53,132 bases of DNA from a virus. The translations under genes were made by a program, and so were the position numbers. This document shows positions 3,561 to 50,456 of the stretch, in pieces. Position 1 is the stretch's first letter; each line of letters opens with the position of its first letter. The notes below the pieces were generated by a model. It searched no databases, had not been told where the DNA came from, and saw only the letters and a program-made list of their open reading frames with translations. Location of the stretch: IMG/VR virus record IMGVR_UViG_3300048929_000075, positions 1-53,132 of that record. One strand, written 5' to 3'.

Positions 3561-3635
3561 TTGCAGATATTTGCAGAAATTTGTAGACAATGCACTGCAT
3601 TGTGGTATCTTTATCGAACAGGGCGACAACCGCCC
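3561..3635 (+). promoter_or_regulatory. Cassette promoter with 10-bp repeats, TGCACTGCA operator and leader hairpin
   Basis: Three tandem 10-bp units (TTGCAGATAT, TTGCAGAAAT, TTGTAGACAA; 3561-3590) run into the near-palindrome ATGCACTGCAT (3590-3600). A sigma-70-like promoter fits as TAGACA (3584-3589), 16 bp, TATCTT (3606-3611). The transcript would begin near 3618, immediately followed by a hairpin GGGCG-ACAAC-CGCCC (3621-3635). The same -35 / TGCA-N-TGCA / -10 / ACAAC-hairpin module recurs at 48439-48490 and 50383-50433. It drives the small-gene cassette starting at 3657. Confidence 0.8.
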
Positions 3636-11515: not shown

Positions 11516-11803
11516 TTAAATTTCCTTATTAAGTTTTTGCAGGATGGTTACATCTTCCGCTGAGAGTTCGACGAGCCGAAAAACACGATCGCGCAGCGGC
11601 TGCCACTCTTCACGGGATGTTATGTTGCGTTCAGGCAGGATTGAAGGCTTTTCGCCTGTAACGTCGCCGACGCGCAATAAAACGAGTTCGCCAGCATGTG
11701 CTAAAAGCATCATTTCGAGGCTACCTTCTCGTAACAATTTGCGCGGGTTAAAAATGTGAGGTTTCGGCACTGGTGCGCCCTCTCGTGGTTGTGTGGTTGT
11801 CAC
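11516..11803 (-). CDS. Hypothetical protein, 95 aa, paralogous tail with the 12435-12713 product
   Basis: The C-terminal 25 residues (RDRVFRLVELSAEDVTILQK) closely match the end of the protein encoded at 12435-12713 (VGRVFALVELTDEQIEKLEA), so the two share a domain. The middle is beta-like (ELVLLRVGDVTGEKP). The gene lies four bases upstream of the terminase small-subunit candidate in the same direction. Function unknown. Confidence 0.65.
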   Translation of the reverse strand: MTTTQPREGAPVPKPHIFNPRKLLREGSLEMMLLAHAGELVLLRVGDVTGEKPSILPERNITSREEWQPLRDRVFRLVELSAEDVTILQKLNKEI

Positions 11804-11829
11804 AGTTTACGAGAGGGCGAAGTGGTGGG

Positions 11830-12273
11830 TCAATCTTGTGGGTTAGTGGCTCGTGCTTCTGCGCGGTCGAGGCGTTCGACCTCTGCCACGATCAGAGCGC
11901 CAGCTTTGACCAGATTGCGACGTTCTCCGCTGTCTTTGAAATCACCCGCACCCCAGGGCCATACGTCGCCTGCGAATGCCAGGCCACTGGTGCGCACCAG
12001 CGCATAGGCCGCTGCAGCGTCCGCCATTTGCCCGTCGGTGTACTGATCGTCGTCCTCGGGCAGGCGCTTCAGTTCTTCGATCTGGCGCGTACGTTCGCGA
12101 CGAATATCTGCCAGCGCCGCCGTGTCGTCTGGCGCGTTCAGTGCTTCGAGAGCGAGGTCAAAAATGGCCTGGAGGGTAGCGTCGCCGCCGAACTCTACTG
12201 TGCCGTCGGCAGCAATAGCCGCAGCGACGTCCTCTTTCATTTTGCGGATAAGACTTTCAGTGATAATTGGCAT
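11830..12273 (-). CDS. Conserved phage protein of unknown function, 147 aa
   Basis: I chose the ATG at 12273 because AAGG lies nine bases upstream; the longer frame adds 26 residues without a binding site. The C-terminal half carries a pattern seen in many enterobacterial phage and prophage proteins of unknown function: RRERTRQIEELK, then a D-rich stretch, GQMADAAAAYAL, WPWGAGDFK, and a final RRNLVKAGALIVAEVERLDRA. The regular spacing suggests a helical bundle. It is the sole member here; the role is unknown. Confidence 0.75.
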   Translation of the reverse strand: MPIITESLIRKMKEDVAAAIAADGTVEFGGDATLQAIFDLALEALNAPDDTAALADIRRERTRQIEELKRLPEDDDQYTDGQMADAAAAYALVRTSGLAFAGDVWPWGAGDFKDSGERRNLVKAGALIVAEVERLDRAEARATNPQD

Positions 12274-13036: not shown

Positions 13037-13066
13037 ATCTTTTCCTTTTGGTAGTTTGCAGTGCAA

Positions 13067-13606
13067 TTATGCGACAACCACAGAGACAACACAACCCTTG
13101 CCTGCATGTTCTTCAGCAAGTTCTTTTGCAGCGTTCAGAACTTCGGCAAGTGCGCGCTCTGATTCGTTGAAACATTCGATCGTTTTCGCCAGTGCATCCC
13201 ATTCGTCAAAACGCCGTCTATGGAAACTGTACGCCGTCAGCTCAACGCGGAAATATTCATGGTAAGCATCGTCCTCAGTGAATACATAAGGTTCTTCGCT
13301 GAAATGCGCCTGAAATTTGATCCCCTCGTACCCAGATTTACCTACCTGGAAATACCGGGTAATTGCTTTGGCTTTACGTTTGGCCTCTTCTGCCTCCTCT
13401 TTGGTGGCAAACACACCGAGGCTCACGCCGTTAGCGTACGCGTAATGCTTTTCTTTGAGCACGGGTTTAGCCTCGTAGGTCTGCCCCACCCACTCCGCGA
13501 TCGCCGTTCTGAATGCGTCTACGCGTGAAATACCCAATTCATTGGCTTTTTGCTCCACCAGCTCAATGATCGAAGTGTCCAGCATGACGTTAACTTGTGC
13601 TTTCAT
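13067..13606 (-). CDS. Ribbon-helix-helix (CopG/MetJ-type) DNA-binding protein, 179 aa
   Basis: Residues 1-42 match the ribbon-helix-helix fold: strand QVNVML, helix DTSIIELVEQKANELG, turn ISR, helix VDAFRTAIAEWV. Proteins of this fold dimerise and insert a beta ribbon in the major groove, often as repressors. Residues about 45-179 form an unrecognised domain with a VSLGVFATKEEAEEAKRKA segment. The gene begins right below the AT-rich region 13607-13853, which holds nine ATGCA/TGCAT words. I infer autoregulation and possibly control of the promoters at 3561, 48439 and 50383 that carry TGCA-N-TGCA. The binding site is a guess; the fold call is good. Confidence 0.75.
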   Translation of the reverse strand: MKAQVNVMLDTSIIELVEQKANELGISRVDAFRTAIAEWVGQTYEAKPVLKEKHYAYANGVSLGVFATKEEAEEAKRKAKAITRYFQVGKSGYEGIKFQAHFSEEPYVFTEDDAYHEYFRVELTAYSFHRRRFDEWDALAKTIECFNESERALAEVLNAAKELAEEHAGKGCVVSVVVA

Positions 13607-28469: not shown

Positions 28470-28884
28470 TATCGACGGCACCCTGTTCGACTGCCGCGCC
28501 CGTGCGCATCTGATCCCCGCTGACCCGTCGCGCGCAGAGAATTGGACGGTGTACAACAGTGCGCGCCATCTGGATGTACCTCGCGAGGCGGTGATTAATA
28601 TGGTGCAGCTTCTCAGCTGGTCGTATGAGGTCATATTAGCTACCTCAGCAGGGCAGGCCGCTCTCGGTCGCATAGCCGATCAAATGGATAGCGTGGCGCT
28701 CTCTGAGGCTACGCTTGATATGCGCCCAATGAATGATCACCGCAGCGCGCTGGAGTACAAAATGGAACGCTACCGCGAACTGAAACCGGATCTGATTATT
28801 GAAGATCATCCGGGCATCGTCGCGGCCTTGCGTGCCGAGGGGTTCACCGTCCTCCAGATTGACAGCATGGATCCCACCCTTTAA
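28453..28884 (+). CDS. HAD-family phosphatase, 143 aa
   Basis: I chose ATG at 28453, with GGGAGG eight bases upstream. Motif I is DIDGTLFDC (Asp6 nucleophile, Asp8), motif II the Ser/Thr of ILATSAGQ, and the Lys of EYKMERYREL and IIEDHPGIV serve as motifs III and IV. Small HAD proteins in phages act on nucleotides or on DNA/RNA 3' phosphates; the substrate cannot be read from the sequence. It is coupled to the preceding exonuclease gene, suggesting nucleic-acid end processing. Confidence 0.8.
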   Translation: MLIAVDIDGTLFDCRARAHLIPADPSRAENWTVYNSARHLDVPREAVINMVQLLSWSYEVILATSAGQAALGRIADQMDSVALSEATLDMRPMNDHRSALEYKMERYRELKPDLIIEDHPGIVAALRAEGFTVLQIDSMDPTL

Positions 28885-28890
28885 CCTTAA

Positions 28891-28915
28891 GCGCGACAAC
28901 CACAGAGGGTCGCGC
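28891..28915 (+). promoter_or_regulatory. Start-site hairpin containing a GCGACAACC leader motif
   Basis: GCGCGAC (28891-28897) pairs perfectly with GTCGCGC (28909-28915), whose last base abuts the ATG at 28916. The loop holds most of the GAGGG ribosome binding site. The 5' arm plus loop reads GCGCGACAACCAC, identical to 42326-42338 before the TerB gene and related to the leader hairpins of the cassette promoters. Folding would hide the start region. Confidence 0.65.
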
Positions 28916-29365
28916 ATGAAACTGGACGAGCTGCTGCGAAGCCAGCGGGCAATTGACACGGAAAAAATGGAATACACCAGGTTACCCGCTGGCGCTAAAA
29001 GGCCGTGCCGTAACAGACACACCGCCGAGCGCGGGATCACTTATATGAAGGGTACGGGACGTTACCGTGCTTTCGCCCATCGCCCTTTTTACCACTTCGT
29101 CGGTACATACCCAGATCTGGGTCTGGCTGTGGCAGCACGCGATCAGGCCGAACTTTTGGGTATGCGCCGACTGCACGAGGCAGTACCGGAGCTACTCAAC
29201 GAAGATGCACAGGACGCAGTGCAGATCAAACGAGTGAACCGGAGCCAGTTTTCAGTGGTGTATGTGGTAAGCGGCGGCGCGATGTCCACAGATTGCGAGT
29301 CCTACGATGATTGTCTGGCATGGCTGCGGGACTGCCGCCAACAAATAAGAGAAAGCAATGCGTAA
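28916..29365 (+). CDS. AP2-like DNA-binding protein, 149 aa
   Basis: ATG at 28916 behind GAGGG is preferred over the upstream in-frame ATG at 28799. Residues about 38-85 resemble an AP2/ERF domain: RGITYMKGTGRYRAFAHR, then FVGTYPDLGLAVAARDQAELLG, matching the G-V-x-W…W-R-A…LG-x-F…EAA-x-A pattern seen in phage homing-type and accessory proteins. The C-terminal 50 residues are a separate beta-helix segment with a Cys pair. No nuclease motif is present, so it is more likely a DNA-binding protein than a homing endonuclease. Confidence 0.66.
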   Translation: MKLDELLRSQRAIDTEKMEYTRLPAGAKRPCRNRHTAERGITYMKGTGRYRAFAHRPFYHFVGTYPDLGLAVAARDQAELLGMRRLHEAVPELLNEDAQDAVQIKRVNRSQFSVVYVVSGGAMSTDCESYDDCLAWLRDCRQQIRESNA

Positions 29366-35977: not shown

Positions 35978-37270
35978 TTAACCCCTGTATTCAATTCGTT
36001 TGATGTACGCGTCGCCGACATCATAAAGGTTAAGCGGTAGATCGACGTGATCTGCCTGCCCGAAGAATAGATCGATGTGGCCGCCGTCGGTGAGCAGCAC
36101 GCGCACGCTTTCCGCGCCGTACATTTTGGCTATAGAGATACTGCCCGCAGGTGAGGTGTACACACCATCAGGGCGCAACGACGGCACGGTGCCGGAGTCC
36201 AGCGACAGTACGCCATGCGAGATCAGCAGGGCGGAGCTATAGTTGCCTGTCGACGGGAAGATAGTGTTACCCGCGGCGTTCGTCATGATGTATCGCAGTT
36301 TTAGCTGGCTGCCCGCAGTAGCCCAGTTAACAACGAACGAGAACCGGAACCACCCCCCACCGTACCGGATCACTTTTACGTTGCGAAAACCGGAACTGAC
36401 TGAATATGTGCCGTTAGGCCGCAAAGAGATCCTGCCGAACAGGGTATTGGCCTGATCAAAGATCTGAACATCGGTTCCGCAGTTGCTGTAACCGTAAGCT
36501 TTGATCAGCAGATCGACGCGCAGGACGTCGCCCGCTTTCAGCTGGGTGCCGTCGTACATGTCATCAATAAGATACGCTGCGTCGGTGCCGTTAGAATTCT
36601 GTGCGCCCCATAGCGCGGCCTTAAGCCCACCACCGGGGGTGTCGTTATACAGCGTGTTGTAGTCAGACCGTGACAGCGTTTGCGACACGAACGGGAACGC
36701 AGTAAGCGCTACAGGCGGCAGCTGTCGACCTACCTGTACATTGTTGACCATTTCGACCGGGTAGGCGCCTTCCTGTGTCATCACCAGATAATCCCCGGCG
36801 CCCCGGATACCGTGCACCGGGTTACTGTTCACTATCACGCGCGGATCTAGTTCGGTAGCGCGCATGTCGATCGCGGTCCGGTCGACGATCTTACTTGCTG
36901 ACTCCAGCTGCGCGGCGCTCTGATAAGTCACCACTCCGTAAACGCTCTGGATGTCTACATCGACGTTTAGTTTTCGCGCCTCTGCATCAAACGTATAGTC
37001 GAGGCGGTTAATGGATTGAACGCCGTCAACGTCCAGCATCTGCTGACGCAACGCGTCGACAGCAGCGTCGACAGTAACCGCAGTTTTCCCCAGTATCCGC
37101 AACAGGTATGGGGTTCCGAAGGTTTCATCGAGGAACCACTCACCCGCCCACAATGACAACCTGAACTCTACTTGCTGGCGCACGCGGTCAGCGCCCCGGA
37201 CAAAAACAAGGTCGCCAATGTCATCAAACACAAAGCGCCCATTTTCAATTTTGATATCGATTAAATCCAT
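35978..37270 (-). CDS. Gp25/DUF2634-like baseplate wedge fused to a large C-terminal domain, 430 aa
   Basis: Residues 1 to about 115 resemble gp25/W-type or DUF2634 proteins: FRLSLWAGEWFLDETFGTPY near 37-56 with the conserved G-x-P-Y. Such proteins are normally near 110-150 aa. Residues about 120-430 add a beta-rich region (LKAGDVLRVDLLIKAYGY, GGGWFRFSFVVNWATAG, LLISHGVLSLDSG) that looks like a jelly-roll/carbohydrate-binding sandwich. The fusion places a binding domain on the wedge. It lies between the spike and the baseplate J-like gene. Confidence 0.78.
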   Translation of the reverse strand: MDLIDIKIENGRFVFDDIGDLVFVRGADRVRQQVEFRLSLWAGEWFLDETFGTPYLLRILGKTAVTVDAAVDALRQQMLDVDGVQSINRLDYTFDAEARKLNVDVDIQSVYGVVTYQSAAQLESASKIVDRTAIDMRATELDPRVIVNSNPVHGIRGAGDYLVMTQEGAYPVEMVNNVQVGRQLPPVALTAFPFVSQTLSRSDYNTLYNDTPGGGLKAALWGAQNSNGTDAAYLIDDMYDGTQLKAGDVLRVDLLIKAYGYSNCGTDVQIFDQANTLFGRISLRPNGTYSVSSGFRNVKVIRYGGGWFRFSFVVNWATAGSQLKLRYIMTNAAGNTIFPSTGNYSSALLISHGVLSLDSGTVPSLRPDGVYTSPAGSISIAKMYGAESVRVLLTDGGHIDLFFGQADHVDLPLNLYDVGDAYIKRIEYRG

Positions 37271-39872: not shown

Positions 39873-41569
39873 TATTGACCTCCTGTTACGTCGCGCAGCC
39901 CCTGCGCCATACGAATCTGATCGAGTGCTGCATCCCCGATCCCTTTACCGTCGGTGCCGGGCGGCACGTTTATCGTTAGGTTGTATGTCGGGCTGGAGTT
40001 GTTCGTAGTGTTATTATTTGTCACCTGTGGCACCCCGCCGATCGCATTGTTGCCCCCGCCAGGGAGGTCGAACTGCACATTGTTCGGCAGCGGGTTGACG
40101 TCGATTGGTGACGGTACAGACGGCGTCGGCGCCCGGAACCAGTTATAGGCGTCAACCAAAGCGTCAACAGGCGAGCTGATCATCTTGCCCACTGGGCTAG
40201 CAGCGAAGCGGTCGAGTGGTCCGGGTATTTCACTGGCCTTTTTCGGGTTCGCCGAGGTCTCGGCGTCGGCTTTCATTTGCTCCTCAAATGATTGACCGTT
40301 CCACATGCGCTGGATGGATTTAGCAGCAGCAGCGAAATCGCCGTTGCTGATATTTTTAATGGTGTCGACCAGCCCCTGCACGGAGTTCATCAGGGTGTGC
40401 ACCTGGTGCACCAGGTCCTCGATCTCCGCTTTAAGCGACCACTTAGAGACATCGATCCCGAGCATTTCTTTCACGGAAGTGATTAGCCCGTTGACGTCGC
40501 GCGTCAGCTGCGTAACAAGGTTACTAGCCTGCGTCAGCGTAGTCTGCCATTCTGACCAGTCGATTAGGCTGGTGCCGCCTTCCTTCCAGACCATGTAATC
40601 GTCGTACAGCAACCCTATGGCGCCCGCCAGCGCCACTACGGCCGCCGTAGGCGAGGTGAGCATCGATAATGCTTTGAAGCCCGTCAGAATAGTCAGCAGC
40701 GCGGCCAAAGGGGTAAGCACGTTTTTAATGGATTCGGCAACGTTCTTTGTGCCGCCCATGCTATCCACGAAATCGAGCCATGCCTGCCGCGCCTCATTCC
40801 ACCAGTCGCGCAGGTCTGCGGCTGCATCCTTCAGGATCCCGGTATCGACAACGAGCTGTTTGAATGCCACTTTGCCGTCGTTCTGGATCATCGTCCAGAC
40901 GTCGCCCAGTGTCATAGGCATTTTGCGAAGCTGATCCATAATGCGCTTGTTCTGCGCGAGGATAGCGTCAGCCAGCATCTTAGAGGACACCTTCCCCTGA
41001 CTAACCATTTTCTTGAATGCAGTGGTGGTACCGCCAATGGACTCGGCGACAGCCACATACAGATCGGGGCTGGCGTCCATGAAGCTGTTTAATTCTTCCA
41101 TCTGCACAGAACCGGAGCCGATAGACTGCGTCAGCTGGAACAGCGCCCCGGCAGCTGTTTGCGCTTCCGTGCCGTTGACACGGAACGCTGCCGACAGGGT
41201 GTCTGTTAGCTCGGTAGTGGCGCTGACGTCGTATCCAAGCCTGCGCATACCAGTTTCAAACTTAGACCAGCTGTCTGTATACGCTTCCACGTCCATGCGC
41301 GCATCGCTGGCGTGCTGCGCCAGGGTTTCGAAAAGCCCGTCAACATGGCTACCGACAGCTGCGTCAATACGTGATTGCAGGTTCTGAAGACCATCAGCTA
41401 GCGAAGCGATGCGCTGTAAAGCCACACCGATCCCGAGGCCTGCGAGCACGTCGCCGAGGCTCAACAATGACGCTTTTGTTTTATTGACGGAGTCGTCGAT
41501 CTTATCGAGTTTTTCGGTCGTACCTGAATCATCGACTCCGATTTTTACGAGTAGCTCGCGGAGGTTCAT
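39872..41569 (-). CDS. Tail tape measure protein, 565 aa
   Basis: Determines tail length. The N-terminus (LRELLVKIGVDDSGTTEKLDK) and the tape-measure domain (about 50-250, with GTEAQTAAGALFQLTQSIGSG and QMEELNSFMDASPDLYVAVAESI) are typical. A membrane-like stretch lies near 285-330 (LAALLTILTGFKAL; AVVALAGAIGLLY). At 565 aa it is short for a myovirus and predicts a short contractile tail (roughly 85 nm by the usual 0.15 nm per residue). It starts in an ATGA overlap with the frameshifted chaperone. Confidence 0.87.
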   Translation of the reverse strand: MNLRELLVKIGVDDSGTTEKLDKIDDSVNKTKASLLSLGDVLAGLGIGVALQRIASLADGLQNLQSRIDAAVGSHVDGLFETLAQHASDARMDVEAYTDSWSKFETGMRRLGYDVSATTELTDTLSAAFRVNGTEAQTAAGALFQLTQSIGSGSVQMEELNSFMDASPDLYVAVAESIGGTTTAFKKMVSQGKVSSKMLADAILAQNKRIMDQLRKMPMTLGDVWTMIQNDGKVAFKQLVVDTGILKDAAADLRDWWNEARQAWLDFVDSMGGTKNVAESIKNVLTPLAALLTILTGFKALSMLTSPTAAVVALAGAIGLLYDDYMVWKEGGTSLIDWSEWQTTLTQASNLVTQLTRDVNGLITSVKEMLGIDVSKWSLKAEIEDLVHQVHTLMNSVQGLVDTIKNISNGDFAAAAKSIQRMWNGQSFEEQMKADAETSANPKKASEIPGPLDRFAASPVGKMISSPVDALVDAYNWFRAPTPSVPSPIDVNPLPNNVQFDLPGGGNNAIGGVPQVTNNNTTNNSSPTYNLTINVPPGTDGKGIGDAALDQIRMAQGLRDVTGGQ

Positions 41570-42200
41570 TGGTCTGCCTCTTTCCGTTGTTGCTCGCGCT
41601 GATGTTCATCAGCGTCCATCAGCTGATTAAGAACCAGCAGCTGCCTGACGGACACCTCGCCTTTGTTCACTGCTTCCAGCGATACCAGCTTAGCCATGAT
41701 AGGCCGCCAGATAAAAGCCTCTGGCTTGAACTCGTCCCGCCAGATTATTGCGCCTGCTGGTCGTTCCCGTTCTGTTCTTTTTCCAGCCTGGCGCGTGCTT
41801 TTTCTTTTGCCGCCGCGCTGATCTTCTCCAGGTCGATCCCAAATCGCGCAAGCGTCTTTTTTAACAGCGGCTCAAAGTTAAAGCGCAGAATCATCGCCAC
41901 CACGACAAAGAACTCGTCGAGGTTCTCGTGGGTGTAAAGCTCGTTCATGTCGGCGGCTGTAGCCAGTTTTTTGGCGTCAGTGGTGCACACCACCGCGCAG
42001 TCTTTCAGGATCGGGAAAATAACATTATCGAGAGTGTTTTCGTCGATACCGTCGAGGATCTTCGTGACGTCAGTCAAAGCCCCGGTGAGGCCTTGTGTGG
42101 CGATGCCTTTTAACTTAGTCAGGTGGTGCACTGTCTTAAATGCCTGTAGCGGGAAAAAGGTGTAATTGCGGCCTGCTACGGTAATCTCTTGCTGTTCCAC
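41566..42200 (-). CDS. Frameshifted long form of the tail assembly chaperone, 211 aa
   Basis: Predicted -1 programmed frameshift product. The zero frame reads TTA AAA AAG at 41864-41856, giving the canonical slippery heptamer A_AAA_AAG (41862-41856). After slipping, the -1 frame is open for 96 codons to the TGA at 41568-41566, adding a chain that contains IIWRDEFKPEAFIWRPIMAK and a helical end. Its stop overlaps the tape measure start, as in other long-tailed phages where the long and short chaperones coat the tape measure. Short form: 151 aa, ending at 41745. Confidence 0.78.
41745..42200 (-). CDS. Tail assembly chaperone, short form, 151 aa
   Basis: It lies just upstream of the tape measure gene, where lambda G-like chaperones are encoded. 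The protein is helical (FPLQAFKTVHHLTKL near 16-30, LDEFFVVVAMILRFNFEPLL near 94-113) and ends in a charged Lys/Glu/Gln-rich tail. At codons 113-115 it contains the slippery sequence that yields the longer form. The short form should exceed the long form. It is transcribed away from the plus-strand TerB cassette. Confidence 0.8.
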   Translation of the reverse strand: MEQQEITVAGRNYTFFPLQAFKTVHHLTKLKGIATQGLTGALTDVTKILDGIDENTLDNVIFPILKDCAVVCTTDAKKLATAADMNELYTHENLDEFFVVVAMILRFNFEPLLKKTLARFGIDLEKISAAAKEKARARLEKEQNGNDQQAQ

Positions 42201-42279: not shown

Positions 42280-42338
42280 TTTACTTCTGCATTTAGATTT
42301 CCTATAGTGACAACCGCGCAATATTGCGCGACAACCAC
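42280..42338 (+). promoter_or_regulatory. Promoter and palindromic leader of the TerB cassette
   Basis: TTTACT (42280-42285), 17 bp containing CTGCAT, and TATAGT (42303-42308) form a good sigma-70 promoter. A perfect 16-bp palindrome CGCGCAATATTGCGCG (42315-42330) lies at the likely transcript start. It is flanked by direct repeats GTGACAACC (42307-42315) and GCGACAACC (42328-42336), 21 bp apart. The ACAACC motif links it to the other cassette leaders. Confidence 0.75.
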
Positions 42339-42357
42339 TGAAAGAAAGGATAAGAAA

Positions 42358-42792
42358 ATGGGTATTCTGGGTAATCTGTTCAAACAAAAGAAAACGGCTA
42401 TTGCACAAAACGTAAATCAGGCGATCGCGAAAGATGTAGTTGAGGCAGTGATCTCTGGGTCGTTGCTGGTGGCCTTTGCAGACGGCACCTGCGACGATGA
42501 AGAGTTGACCAGTCTGGAAGGCATTCTCTCCGCCGAAGAGACTTTTGCGCCGATGGCCTCCGAGTTCTCTGCGCTGATTGCGAAGTTCGCGGGCAAGCTG
42601 TCAGAAGGTCGTTTTAAAATGGGTAAACTGGTTGCCCTGCGTGAACTGGCCGACCTGAAAAGCCGCCCTGCGGATGCTGAACTCGTGTTTGCGTGTATCG
42701 AATGCGTAGCCGATAACGGCGGTATCTCTGACGAAGAACGTGCGGTGCTGAAAGAGATTGCTGCGGCCCTGGGCGTGGCTTACCGTGGGTAA
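42358..42792 (+). CDS. TerB-like protein, 144 aa
   Basis: ATG at 42358 behind AAAGGATAAG; an upstream in-frame start at 42265 lies before the promoter and is rejected. Residues about 20-140 match the TerB (tellurite-resistance) helical domain: SLLVAFADGTCDDEELTSLE, then VFACIECVADNGGISDEERAVLKEIAAALGV, with acidic metal-binding repeats of the type D-G-x-x-x-D-E-E. TerB proteins are tied to stress and phage response. It forms its own plus-strand unit inside the minus-strand tail genes. Confidence 0.82.
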   Translation: MGILGNLFKQKKTAIAQNVNQAIAKDVVEAVISGSLLVAFADGTCDDEELTSLEGILSAEETFAPMASEFSALIAKFAGKLSEGRFKMGKLVALRELADLKSRPADAELVFACIECVADNGGISDEERAVLKEIAAALGVAYRG

Positions 42793-42946
42793 CAGAATCC
42801 GGCTGGCGCTGGTCGCCGTCCTGTTGGTGCTGTCCGTGGTGGTCGATTCTGTTTACTACGTGGTGAGCGCCGTAACTGACGGCATCTTTGCAGCGTTGAT
42901 CGTGGTGGTGGCACTTCCCATCATTCGCAACGTCTGGAAAAGTTAA
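42785..42946 (+). CDS. Small membrane protein coupled to the TerB gene, 53 aa
   Basis: A GTG at 42785 overlaps the end of the TerB gene by 8 bases. The product has two hydrophobic segments (about 5-23 LALVAVLLVLSVVVDSV and 28-46) and a basic end (IRNVWKS). There is no signal cleavage site. Coupling to TerB suggests that the two act together at the membrane. The TTG at 42758 would also open the frame but has no binding site. Confidence 0.68.
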   Translation: MGNRIRLALVAVLLVLSVVVDSVYYVVSAVTDGIFAALIVVVALPIIRNVWKS

Positions 42947-42950
42947 AAGA

Positions 42951-42976
42951 AAGCCCCTCGATTGAGGGGCTTTTTT
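42951..42976. terminator. Bidirectional terminator closing the TerB cassette
   Basis: A 9-bp stem AAGCCCCTC / GAGGGGCTT with loop GATT is followed by TTTTT on the plus strand, and by a T-rich run (complement of AAAAGA) on the minus strand. On the minus strand it lies just beyond the stop of the gene at 42976-43329, so it could also stop late transcription before the chaperone and tape measure genes. Confidence 0.9.
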
Positions 42977-43329
42977 CATACTGCGGTAACGGTCACCTTT
43001 TCGGTATACGTCGCTATTGATCCGTCTGCGTTCGACACTGTCCAGACAAGCTGCACAACACCCGGCTGCAGCAGGTTTAGTTGCTCCTCCGCGGTGTCGA
43101 CGGATACCACTGTTACGTCTGAACTCACCACGGAAACCCAGAATCCCCGGGCATCTGCCGGGTAAGTTGCAACAGTCGGGAACGGCTGCACAGTACCCGC
43201 GACGGCGACGATGTCAGGCACCCAGAAATTGACAACAGACACGGCAGCCGTGCTGTTAAGGTCTTCGGGTGATGCTTCAGGTACCCCAGTCATTGACTGG
43301 GGGAACTTGTCGCCGCCTATCAGGATCAT
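42976..43329 (-). CDS. Hypothetical structural protein, Ig-like, 117 aa
   Basis: All-beta composition (Val/Thr/Ser-rich), with VLQLVW-type strands (QPGVVQLVWTVSNADGS) suggestive of a bacterial Ig-like domain. It is encoded one base from the tail tube gene and before the TerB cassette, so it may decorate the tail tube or sheath. There is no signal or enzyme motif. Its stop lies at the edge of the terminator. Confidence 0.66.
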   Translation of the reverse strand: MILIGGDKFPQSMTGVPEASPEDLNSTAAVSVVNFWVPDIVAVAGTVQPFPTVATYPADARGFWVSVVSSDVTVVSVDTAEEQLNLLQPGVVQLVWTVSNADGSIATYTEKVTVTAV

Positions 43330-43778
43330 TAGTTGTTACCGCCCAGGTTCATGATCAGGTCGGCTGCTTCGAACGTATAGACACGCTCGCCGACTTCGCC
43401 GGAGGCAAACGTCACGTCACCGACCTGCATCAGCCACGCGTCACCTGCCGAGATCACCGTGCGCCCAGACAAATCTTTGCAAACGATAGGACCAACAAAG
43501 CTCCCCTCTTCGCTCAAGCTGTCCAGGTTAAACGTGGTCGACAGCAGGTCGTTCATTTCAGACGTTTGCAGGATGTGGATCTCGATCTGCCCGCGTTTAT
43601 CGGTGACCTTCGCACGCCCCACAGCGCCGTCATTGCCCGCTCGCGAGTTATAGAACGGCTGGTTACGGCGCGCAGTTACGCTGTCGCCGTCGGACAATCC
43701 TGACAGGGGCAGAACGCCGACAACGACCGTTAACTCGGCACCGTCCCATGTCCCAGTAAGTTTACTGTTCTGTGGCAT
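43329..43778 (-). CDS. Tail tube protein (DUF3277), 149 aa
   Basis: Matches the DUF3277 family of inner tail tube proteins that accompany DUF3383 sheaths: a TGTWDGAELTVVVGVLPLSG-type start, GLSDGDSVTARRNQPFYNSRAGNDGAVGRA (about 28-57), and FTFEAADLIMNLGGN-like end. It lies directly after the sheath gene and is the expected major tube subunit. Confidence 0.84.
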   Translation of the reverse strand: MPQNSKLTGTWDGAELTVVVGVLPLSGLSDGDSVTARRNQPFYNSRAGNDGAVGRAKVTDKRGQIEIHILQTSEMNDLLSTTFNLDSLSEEGSFVGPIVCKDLSGRTVISAGDAWLMQVGDVTFASGEVGERVYTFEAADLIMNLGGNN

Positions 43779-48438: not shown

Positions 48439-48490
48439 TAGACAATGCACTGCAATCTATATACTATTATCAAACAGGGCGACAACCGCC
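48439..48490 (+). promoter_or_regulatory. Block D promoter with TGCACTGCA operator and leader hairpin
   Basis: TAGACA (48439-48444), 17 bp containing ATGCACTGCA, TACTAT (48462-48467), then the leader hairpin GGCG-ACAAC-CGCC (48478-48490) at the expected transcript start. The run GTAGACAATGCACTGCA is identical to that at 3583-3599. It drives the gene at 48515 and the downstream block D genes. Confidence 0.8.
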
Positions 48491-49039: not shown

Positions 49040-49858
49040 ATGATGAAACGTATCACTGCCATTGCTTTAACGATCGCCGCTGTTCTGGGCACCTCCTACG
49101 TCGGCAGCGCATCAGCGTACGACTTTGCCACTGATGCGCAGGGTTCCACCCAGTGGGCACAAAACACCGAGGGTAAGGTCGACGGCCTTTCTAACGATGT
49201 GTGGGGCCTGGGCGAGCGCAACACTCAGCAGGACAAAGCCATCGGGGATAACGCCTCCGCTATCGGGCACATGAGCCAGCACGTAGGGCAAAACTCCATG
49301 CTGATTCAGGCCAACAAAGACGCGATTGACGCGCTGGCTAACGCCCCGAAACCGAAAGACGGTAAAGACGGCGCAGCAGGCCGCGACGGTGTTGATGGTG
49401 CTGACGGTCGCAACGGCGCGGACGGGCACGACGGTAAAGACGGCAAGGACGGCGCGCGCGGGGCTACTGGTGCGGCTGGTGTAGACGGTGCTGTGGGTGC
49501 CACTGGCGCCACTGGTGCCACCGGGCGTAACGGTCGCGACGGTAAAGACGTGTCGCCAGCCGTGGCTAAACAGGTGCAGGCTAACACCAACAAGCTGCGC
49601 CAGCACGACCAGCAGATCAGCGACCTGCGCGATGACGTAAAAGGGATCGGCAATAACGCCGCTGCCATGTCCAGCCTGCATTTTAACGGGAACCGCGACA
49701 GCTGGGCGATCTCTACCGGATCATACAACGCTGACGGTGTTGCCTTTGCTGGCGGCTTGCAAAAATCGATCGGTGGTCATCTGGCTACCACGATGCAGGC
49801 CTCCTTTGACGGCGAAGGTAATACGATGGTTGGCGCAGGTCTGCACGGTGATTTCTGA
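49040..49858 (+). CDS. Secreted collagen-like protein with YadA-like C-terminus, 272 aa
   Basis: A signal peptide (MKRITAIALTIAAVLG, cleavage probably near SASA-Y27) is followed by a head region with coiled-coil-like repeats (about 28-100). Then come 21 uninterrupted Gly-x-y triplets, Gly108 to Gly168, then a coiled coil (QANTNKLRQHDQQISDLRDD) and about 65 residues (IGNNAAAMSSLHFNGNRD to the final DF) that resemble the YadA anchor of trimeric autotransporters, ending in an aromatic residue. I infer a trimeric outer-membrane protein displayed on the host. Virion use is less likely because of the signal peptide. Confidence 0.8.
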   Translation: MMKRITAIALTIAAVLGTSYVGSASAYDFATDAQGSTQWAQNTEGKVDGLSNDVWGLGERNTQQDKAIGDNASAIGHMSQHVGQNSMLIQANKDAIDALANAPKPKDGKDGAAGRDGVDGADGRNGADGHDGKDGKDGARGATGAAGVDGAVGATGATGATGRNGRDGKDVSPAVAKQVQANTNKLRQHDQQISDLRDDVKGIGNNAAAMSSLHFNGNRDSWAISTGSYNADGVAFAGGLQKSIGGHLATTMQASFDGEGNTMVGAGLHGDF

Positions 49859-50178: not shown

Positions 50179-50386
50179 TATTTTGAGTCGAGCCAGACGG
50201 GGCGAACCGCAGGTGTTCGGTATATTCGGCGACTATGACGCCACAATGTGGCAGCCAGAGGATGACGCTATGCTGATAGAGTTTCGTTCCCGTGGTCTGG
50301 TCTATAAACAGATCGCGCGTTTACTGGGAAAAACGGAAAGCGCCTGCGCTGCCCGGCATTGTCGCTTAATGGAAAAAACAAAGTGA
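50162..50386 (+). CDS. Myb/SANT-like protein, paralogue of the preceding gene, 74 aa
   Basis: ATG at 50162, behind GAGGAG, overlapping the preceding gene by 17 bases. The pattern W-Q-P-E-D-D-A-MLIEFRSRGLVYKQIARLLGKTESACAARH aligns with the paralogue's Myb-like domain. Its stop lies directly before the promoter at 50383-50433. Role: probable regulator of nearby promoters (inference). Confidence 0.74.
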   Translation: MSLATDILSRARRGEPQVFGIFGDYDATMWQPEDDAMLIEFRSRGLVYKQIARLLGKTESACAARHCRLMEKTK

Positions 50387-50433
50387 CAATGCAGTGCAAT
50401 CTGTTATTATGGGTTCTCAGGGCGACAACCGCC
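50383..50433 (+). promoter_or_regulatory. Third cassette promoter with TGCAGTGCA operator and leader hairpin
   Basis: GTGACA (50383-50388), 16 bp with ATGCAGTGCA, TATTAT (50405-50410), then the leader hairpin GGCG-ACAAC-CGCC (50421-50433). Same module as at 3561 and 48439. The operator's central base differs (G instead of C). It begins within the last codons of the Myb-like gene. Confidence 0.8.
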
Positions 50434-50456
50434 GAACGACACCAAAGGAAATGATC

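Follow-up and report, generated by a model that had tools for sequence, protein, structure and literature searches.

The window analysed here is the whole 53,132-nucleotide stretch of IMG/VR virus record IMGVR_UViG_3300048929_000075, and inside its minus-strand tail operon lies a short plus-strand cassette of two genes, tciA and tciB, preceded by a promoter-like site and followed by a terminator. The locus contains the following features:

42280 to 42308, plus strand: sigma-70-like promoter TTTACT-17-TATAGT, a 9/12 consensus match
42307 to 42315, plus strand: GTGACAACC, first GxGACAACC copy, overlapping the end of the -10 hexamer
42315 to 42330, plus strand: CGCGCAATATTGCGCG, a perfect palindrome of 16 bp, where the transcript is predicted to start
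42328 to 42336, plus strand: GCGACAACC, second GxGACAACC copy
42358 to 42792, plus strand: tciA, TerB family, 144 aa (Pfam, PHROGs and KP-TerB profile)
42785 to 42946, plus strand: tciB, GTG start, two-helix membrane protein of 53 aa (phrog_1470, DUF3927)
42950 to 42973, both strands: bidirectional intrinsic terminator common to tciAB (plus) and the late tail operon (minus)
45197 to 43782, minus strand: tail sheath gene
43329 to 43778, minus strand: tail tube gene (phrog_280; 70% identity to LIET2)
42976 to 43329, minus strand: 117-aa late gene, possibly an Ig-like structural protein (weak match to phrog_215, E 0.04)
41745 to 42200, minus strand: tail assembly chaperone (Phage_TAC_15), the next late gene after the cassette
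41569 to 39872, minus strand: tape measure gene

A preliminary description of this DNA had placed a TerB-like gene and a gene for a two-helix membrane protein on the strand opposite to the tail genes, and this was borne out, as both reading frames are on the plus strand, where they overlap by 8 nt, and family matches were found for both. The tciA product matches Pfam PF05099 (TerB) with E 5e-10 and 40 bits (cut-off 24.4) and phrog_632 in PHROGs with E 6e-36, and a 20-member profile matched KP-TerB of the plasmid ter cluster (PDB 2jxu) across the whole TerB domain (E 2.7e-13). TciA also has a basic N-terminal stretch. Its AlphaFold model is all-helical (pLDDT 86, pTM 0.80); a Foldseek search of the PDB with this model gave no match at E <= 0.001, with 2jxu absent from the top 50, and the TerB assignment therefore rests on sequence. 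TciB has two hydrophobic stretches and matches phrog_1470 'TciB-like' in PHROGs (E 3.8e-10) and DUF3927 (E 4e-5, slightly below the family cut-off), and an alignment of five TciB proteins showed conserved residues R6, D21, S28, D32-G33 and P45. A tblastn search with TciB in phages gave no match, perhaps through composition filtering, and TciB relatives were sought by profile searches in its place.

By comparing distinct viral loci, we found tciB directly 3' of tciA in 45 of 48, so that the two form one module rather than a TerB gene with a chance neighbour, and the same order occurs in P1, LIET2, SP-076 and PPyecE. The pair at 42358-42946 is the known P1-type tciAB moron, familiar in its parts and unusual in its placement. 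In bacteriophage P1 a TerB-family gene is likewise followed by a gene for a 54-aa two-helix membrane protein, whereas P1 has a third gene, tciC, shares 34% identity in TciA and is a temperate phage-plasmid; its tciABC genes are flanked by plp/upl and ban, close to the tRNA genes, and are co-directional with the downstream genes. In contrast to the plasmid ter cluster, the phage has no further recognised ter-cluster gene, and the partner of TciA is TciB. The GC contents of tciA and tciB (53.6% and 55.6%) do not deviate from that of the genome (55.8%), which points to an old or ameliorated insertion.

The closest relatives of the pair are the tciAB genes of the Lietduovirus phages LIET2 and Nafs113, in which TciA is 64–68% identical, the 8-nt overlap recurs, a leader hairpin is followed by ACAAC and a terminator stands directly 3' of tciB. 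There, however, the genes stand first in an operon on the plus strand that is probably early and runs divergently from the head-tail genes. Since LIET2 tciAB lies elsewhere with its own promoter-like site (TTGACA-17-TACTGT), leader hairpin and terminator, the pair appears to be one transcription unit in two places. Proteins shared between the window and LIET2 are 26–70% identical, and with TciA in the upper range both common descent with relocation and exchange within the group are possible. Among viral contigs, a chaperone query gave no match and a sheath query recovered only one identical 4.5-kb fragment, so that these contigs offered no close relative for comparison, either with the cassette or lacking it. 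The 4.5-kb contig IMGVR_UViG_3300048916_000006 carries an identical TciA (residues 8-144) and the tail sheath, and comes from this phage or from one almost identical to it.

Upstream of tciA, no position in the 157-nt gap scores higher than the promoter-like site, which also outscores 98% of shuffles (P 0.017), in agreement with the earlier proposal of a sigma-70 promoter belonging to the cassette; a region-wide promoter scan gave 5 sites versus 6.2 expected, no excess. The 16-bp perfect palindrome noted earlier is indeed present at 42315-42330, and as RNA it would fold into a 6-bp hairpin (-9.7 kcal/mol, z -3.1). A palindrome of this length is expected about once per window and is thus unremarkable window-wide (a second perfect 16-mer lies at 40401), while in shuffles of the tciA leader one arose in 38 of 20,000 (0.2%). 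Leader hairpins 5' of tciA in 20 distinct loci had a mean z of -1.5, and because several of these are terminators of the preceding gene, a conserved tciA leader is not claimed. Rfam and tRNA scans were empty. Two further candidates were discarded: a scan of the collection for CAGGGCGACAACCGCC gave one site in each of 35 stretches, about the chance level for a 16-mer, and CACTATAGG, a T7-promoter-like string of the minus strand close to 42309, occurred once and was taken as coincidence. No phage RNA polymerase was matched among the ~50 proteins scanned.

The GxGACAACC repeats had been described as flanking the palindrome, and they do so, yet they are not private to the cassette, as the window holds 10 sites versus 2.1 expected. 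Seven copies fall within the 5% of the DNA that is intergenic by our own gene calls (p 8e-8). With no motif preselected, CGACAACC emerged as the most enriched intergenic 8-mer, with 6 of its 9 copies in this 5% of the DNA; its intergenic count was reached by 5 of 1000 shifted intergenic masks, and it recurs in the leaders of other plus-strand genes. At 3623, 48479 and 50422 the motif comes after promoters that are nearly identical and have TGCASTGCA between their hexamers; in these leaders it forms the loop part of a 5' hairpin, GGCG-ACAAC-CGCC. These promoter regions (plus strand, 3584-3635, 48439-48490 and 50383-50434), which carry the 5' hairpin GGGCGACAACCGCC at the predicted start, are probably early promoters of the phage with a shared operator and leader. 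Given the genome-wide occurrence of GxGACAACC, the cassette uses the phage's own leader style.

Three other occurrences of these elements were observed in the window. At 13057-13079, TGCAGTGCAATTAT is directly followed by GCGACAACC, joining both early-promoter elements without the -10; the site is partly inside the end of a minus-strand gene and is perhaps a promoter remnant. On the minus strand, at 11774-11830, a GTG start is closely preceded by a 9-bp inverted repeat, CCCTCTCGT...ACGAGAGGG, whose loop contains GTGACAACC. On the plus strand, at 28880-28930, GCGACAACC and a GCGAC...GGTCGC inverted repeat stand directly 5' of the ATG of an unmatched 145-aa protein.

The two copies in the tciA leader are spaced exactly 21 bp from start to start, or two helical turns, and this spacing supports the view that GxGACAACC may act as a DNA operator. 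The pair and the palindrome could then be bound by a regulator on one DNA face that times or shuts off tciAB with the other plus-strand early genes, which the intergenic enrichment of CGACAACC and the three copies behind near-identical promoters would also favour. However, the distance of the motif from the -10 varies from 0 to 11 nt among promoters, and its position in the hairpin loops of three leaders suggests that it may act as RNA rather than DNA. In addition, no regulator was identified, and no leader-element role was seen in LIET2 or DIBBI, in which GACAACC showed no leader enrichment except for GGACAACA in the LIET2 tciA leader. Operator control is a plausible addition that we lean against; it would be compatible with the explanation preferred below and would add a layer of control to it.

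At the other end of the cassette, the terminator at 42950-42973 has a 10-bp stem and T-rich tails TTTTCATACT and TCTTTTAACT, with 6 T of 10 on either side, and its bidirectional character, as first proposed, is upheld by U-tracts on both strands. The cassette therefore does have the make-up of a self-contained TerB moron within the tail operon: a promoter-like site, two genes and a two-faced terminator in counter-orientation. Its own promoter and terminator are recognised by consensus matches only. The cassette is absent from the site in six relatives (DIBBI, PSKM, AAM37, phiEt88, MII_001 and Meifeng), where the tube-chaperone gap measures 35–83 nt with no gene inside.

We then considered the late message on the minus strand, which the preliminary description had expected to be cut before the chaperone and tape measure genes, so that the cassette would force antitermination or an extra promoter. 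This expectation found no support in a comparison with related phages. A strong hairpin lies 3' of the tube gene and before the chaperone gene in all six relatives, with T-runs in all except phiEt88 (a short tail), and the terminator of DIBBI was annotated by the authors of that genome. The Dibbivirus phages DIBBI, PSKM and AAM37 thus share an intrinsic terminator just 3' of the tube gene in the tail operon, while differing in the lack of an inserted gene and in a weaker T-tract on the reverse side. LIET2 has three such terminators, after the tube, depolymerase and Ig-like genes. Since tube-gene terminators are found in all relatives examined, most of them with no gene at that place, the termination problem concerns the whole phage group and not this moron.

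A complete block of late transcription, which could be overcome only by antitermination or by another late promoter ahead of the chaperone gene, is in our view improbable. The strong stem with its U-tract on the minus strand and a TATACT -10-like hexamer ~35 nt 5' of the chaperone start codon would favour it, but the best minus-strand promoter score for the chaperone gene is ordinary (equalled by 38% of shuffles, P 0.38) and none is convincing, and known antiterminator families had no match among the ~50 proteins scanned. Moreover, the tube-chaperone gap of only 35–42 nt in phiEt88, MII_001 and Meifeng could scarcely fit both a hairpin and a promoter. At least as likely, and the simplest account, would be that throughout the group the late terminator acts as a leaky step-down between abundant sheath and tube, of which hundreds of copies are needed, and scarce chaperone and tape measure, of which a few suffice. 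Further along the minus strand, at 35978-37270, a 430-aa gene has a ~118-aa part homologous to a baseplate wedge and ~300 extra residues; in its LIET2 and DIBBI homologues the ~118-aa wedge part is essentially the whole protein.

Terminators with T-tracts on both sides coincide with junctions that hold a counter-oriented gene, namely that of this window (6/6 of 10) and the Ig>chaperone junction of LIET2/Nafs113 (8/8 of 10 in LIET2), whereas reverse-side T-tracts at other junctions are weaker (4–5 of 10). Counter-oriented junction genes occur in only two phage groups, and the link to two-faced terminators thus rests on two cases. In LIET2 the gene is gp086 (L016:8049-8135, minus strand), which encodes a 28-aa single-helix membrane peptide, MKNTRSNTWLAVLAFSLAFWGVVSLIML, that is identical, though unannotated, in Nafs113. 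It shares with the window the junction, the counter-orientation, a promoter-like site (TTGCAT-17-TATAGT upstream, suggestive, as 13% of shuffles score equally) and a two-faced terminator, the reverse face of which lies downstream of gp086, but it is a tiny gene unrelated to the tciAB genes that occupy the junction here. The annotated start of the LIET2 chaperone is probably too far upstream. The tube>chaperone junction of these myoviruses might tentatively be pictured as a recurrent slot for counter-oriented membrane genes with transcription of their own, shielded by a two-faced form of the late step-down terminator and, in this phage, tied to the early programme via GxGACAACC as a shared operator or RNA signal, an idea that we regard as doubtful.

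That the cassette is decaying cargo without current function is very unlikely: its sporadic distribution and the non-essentiality of the genes in P1 would allow it, but both frames are intact with the 8-nt overlap kept, key TciA and TciB residues are conserved, the GC content is like that of the rest of the genome, the signals are intact, and the 64% identity to LIET2 TciA exceeds that of most shared proteins.

The ~50 proteins scanned include terminase, portal, protease, capsid, neck, tail, DNA polymerase, primase, helicases and methyltransferases. Neither an integrase nor a repressor turned up in this set, and the phage is therefore probably virulent. A collagen-like, tail-fibre-type protein is encoded on the plus strand at 49040-49858, among early-looking genes and away from the tail operon. 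A genome-wide CRISPRi screen of P1 scored tciA, tciB and tciC as non-essential (PMC10695390), and in the lytic N4-like phage Pollock TciA was noted as being of unknown role (PMC4319500). In the literature searched, we found no phenotype of phage TciAB, and the database names are given by homology. Plasmid ter clusters are credited, in work cited by PMC7371120 and PMC4319500, with tellurite and colicin resistance and with phage inhibition, and on these grounds the most likely role of TciAB would be accessory and protective, exerted at the membrane. That the TerB-like protein of the phage has to do with host stress or phage response would follow from homology only; TerB-driven phage exclusion is possible, without direct support, and PADLOC gave no defence-system match.

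The above analyses suggest, with a probability of about 0.68, that the locus is a counter-oriented tciAB moron, a separately transcribed and probably early membrane or stress module, behind a leaky two-faced late terminator. The P1-type moron would be set counter to the tail operon, between its tube part and its chaperone and tape-measure part. Host sigma-70 RNA polymerase would start near 42315 and produce a short mRNA that opens with a hairpin, from which TciA and TciB would be translated in overlapping frames, and this mRNA would end at 42950-42973, keeping it from antisense entry into the sheath and tube genes. The opposite face of the terminator would be this phage's version of the group-wide terminator after the tube gene, which would reduce, without stopping, the late transcription that continues into the chaperone and tape-measure genes. 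Cytoplasmic TciA and inner-membrane TciB would probably work jointly at the membrane, in protection from stress or from competitor phages and colicins, and tciAB would be dispensable for plaque formation.

TciA/TerB genes are spread across temperate and virulent phages, and a separate tciAB unit amid the tail genes of an apparently virulent phage argues for a timing unlike that of the virion genes. Throughout this phage group the tail operon contains intrinsic terminators, which offer a simple possible means of fixing how much tube and sheath is made relative to chaperone and tape measure. Two parts of this system deserve following, namely the leader element, which occurs genome-wide, and the recurrent slot for a counter-oriented gene.
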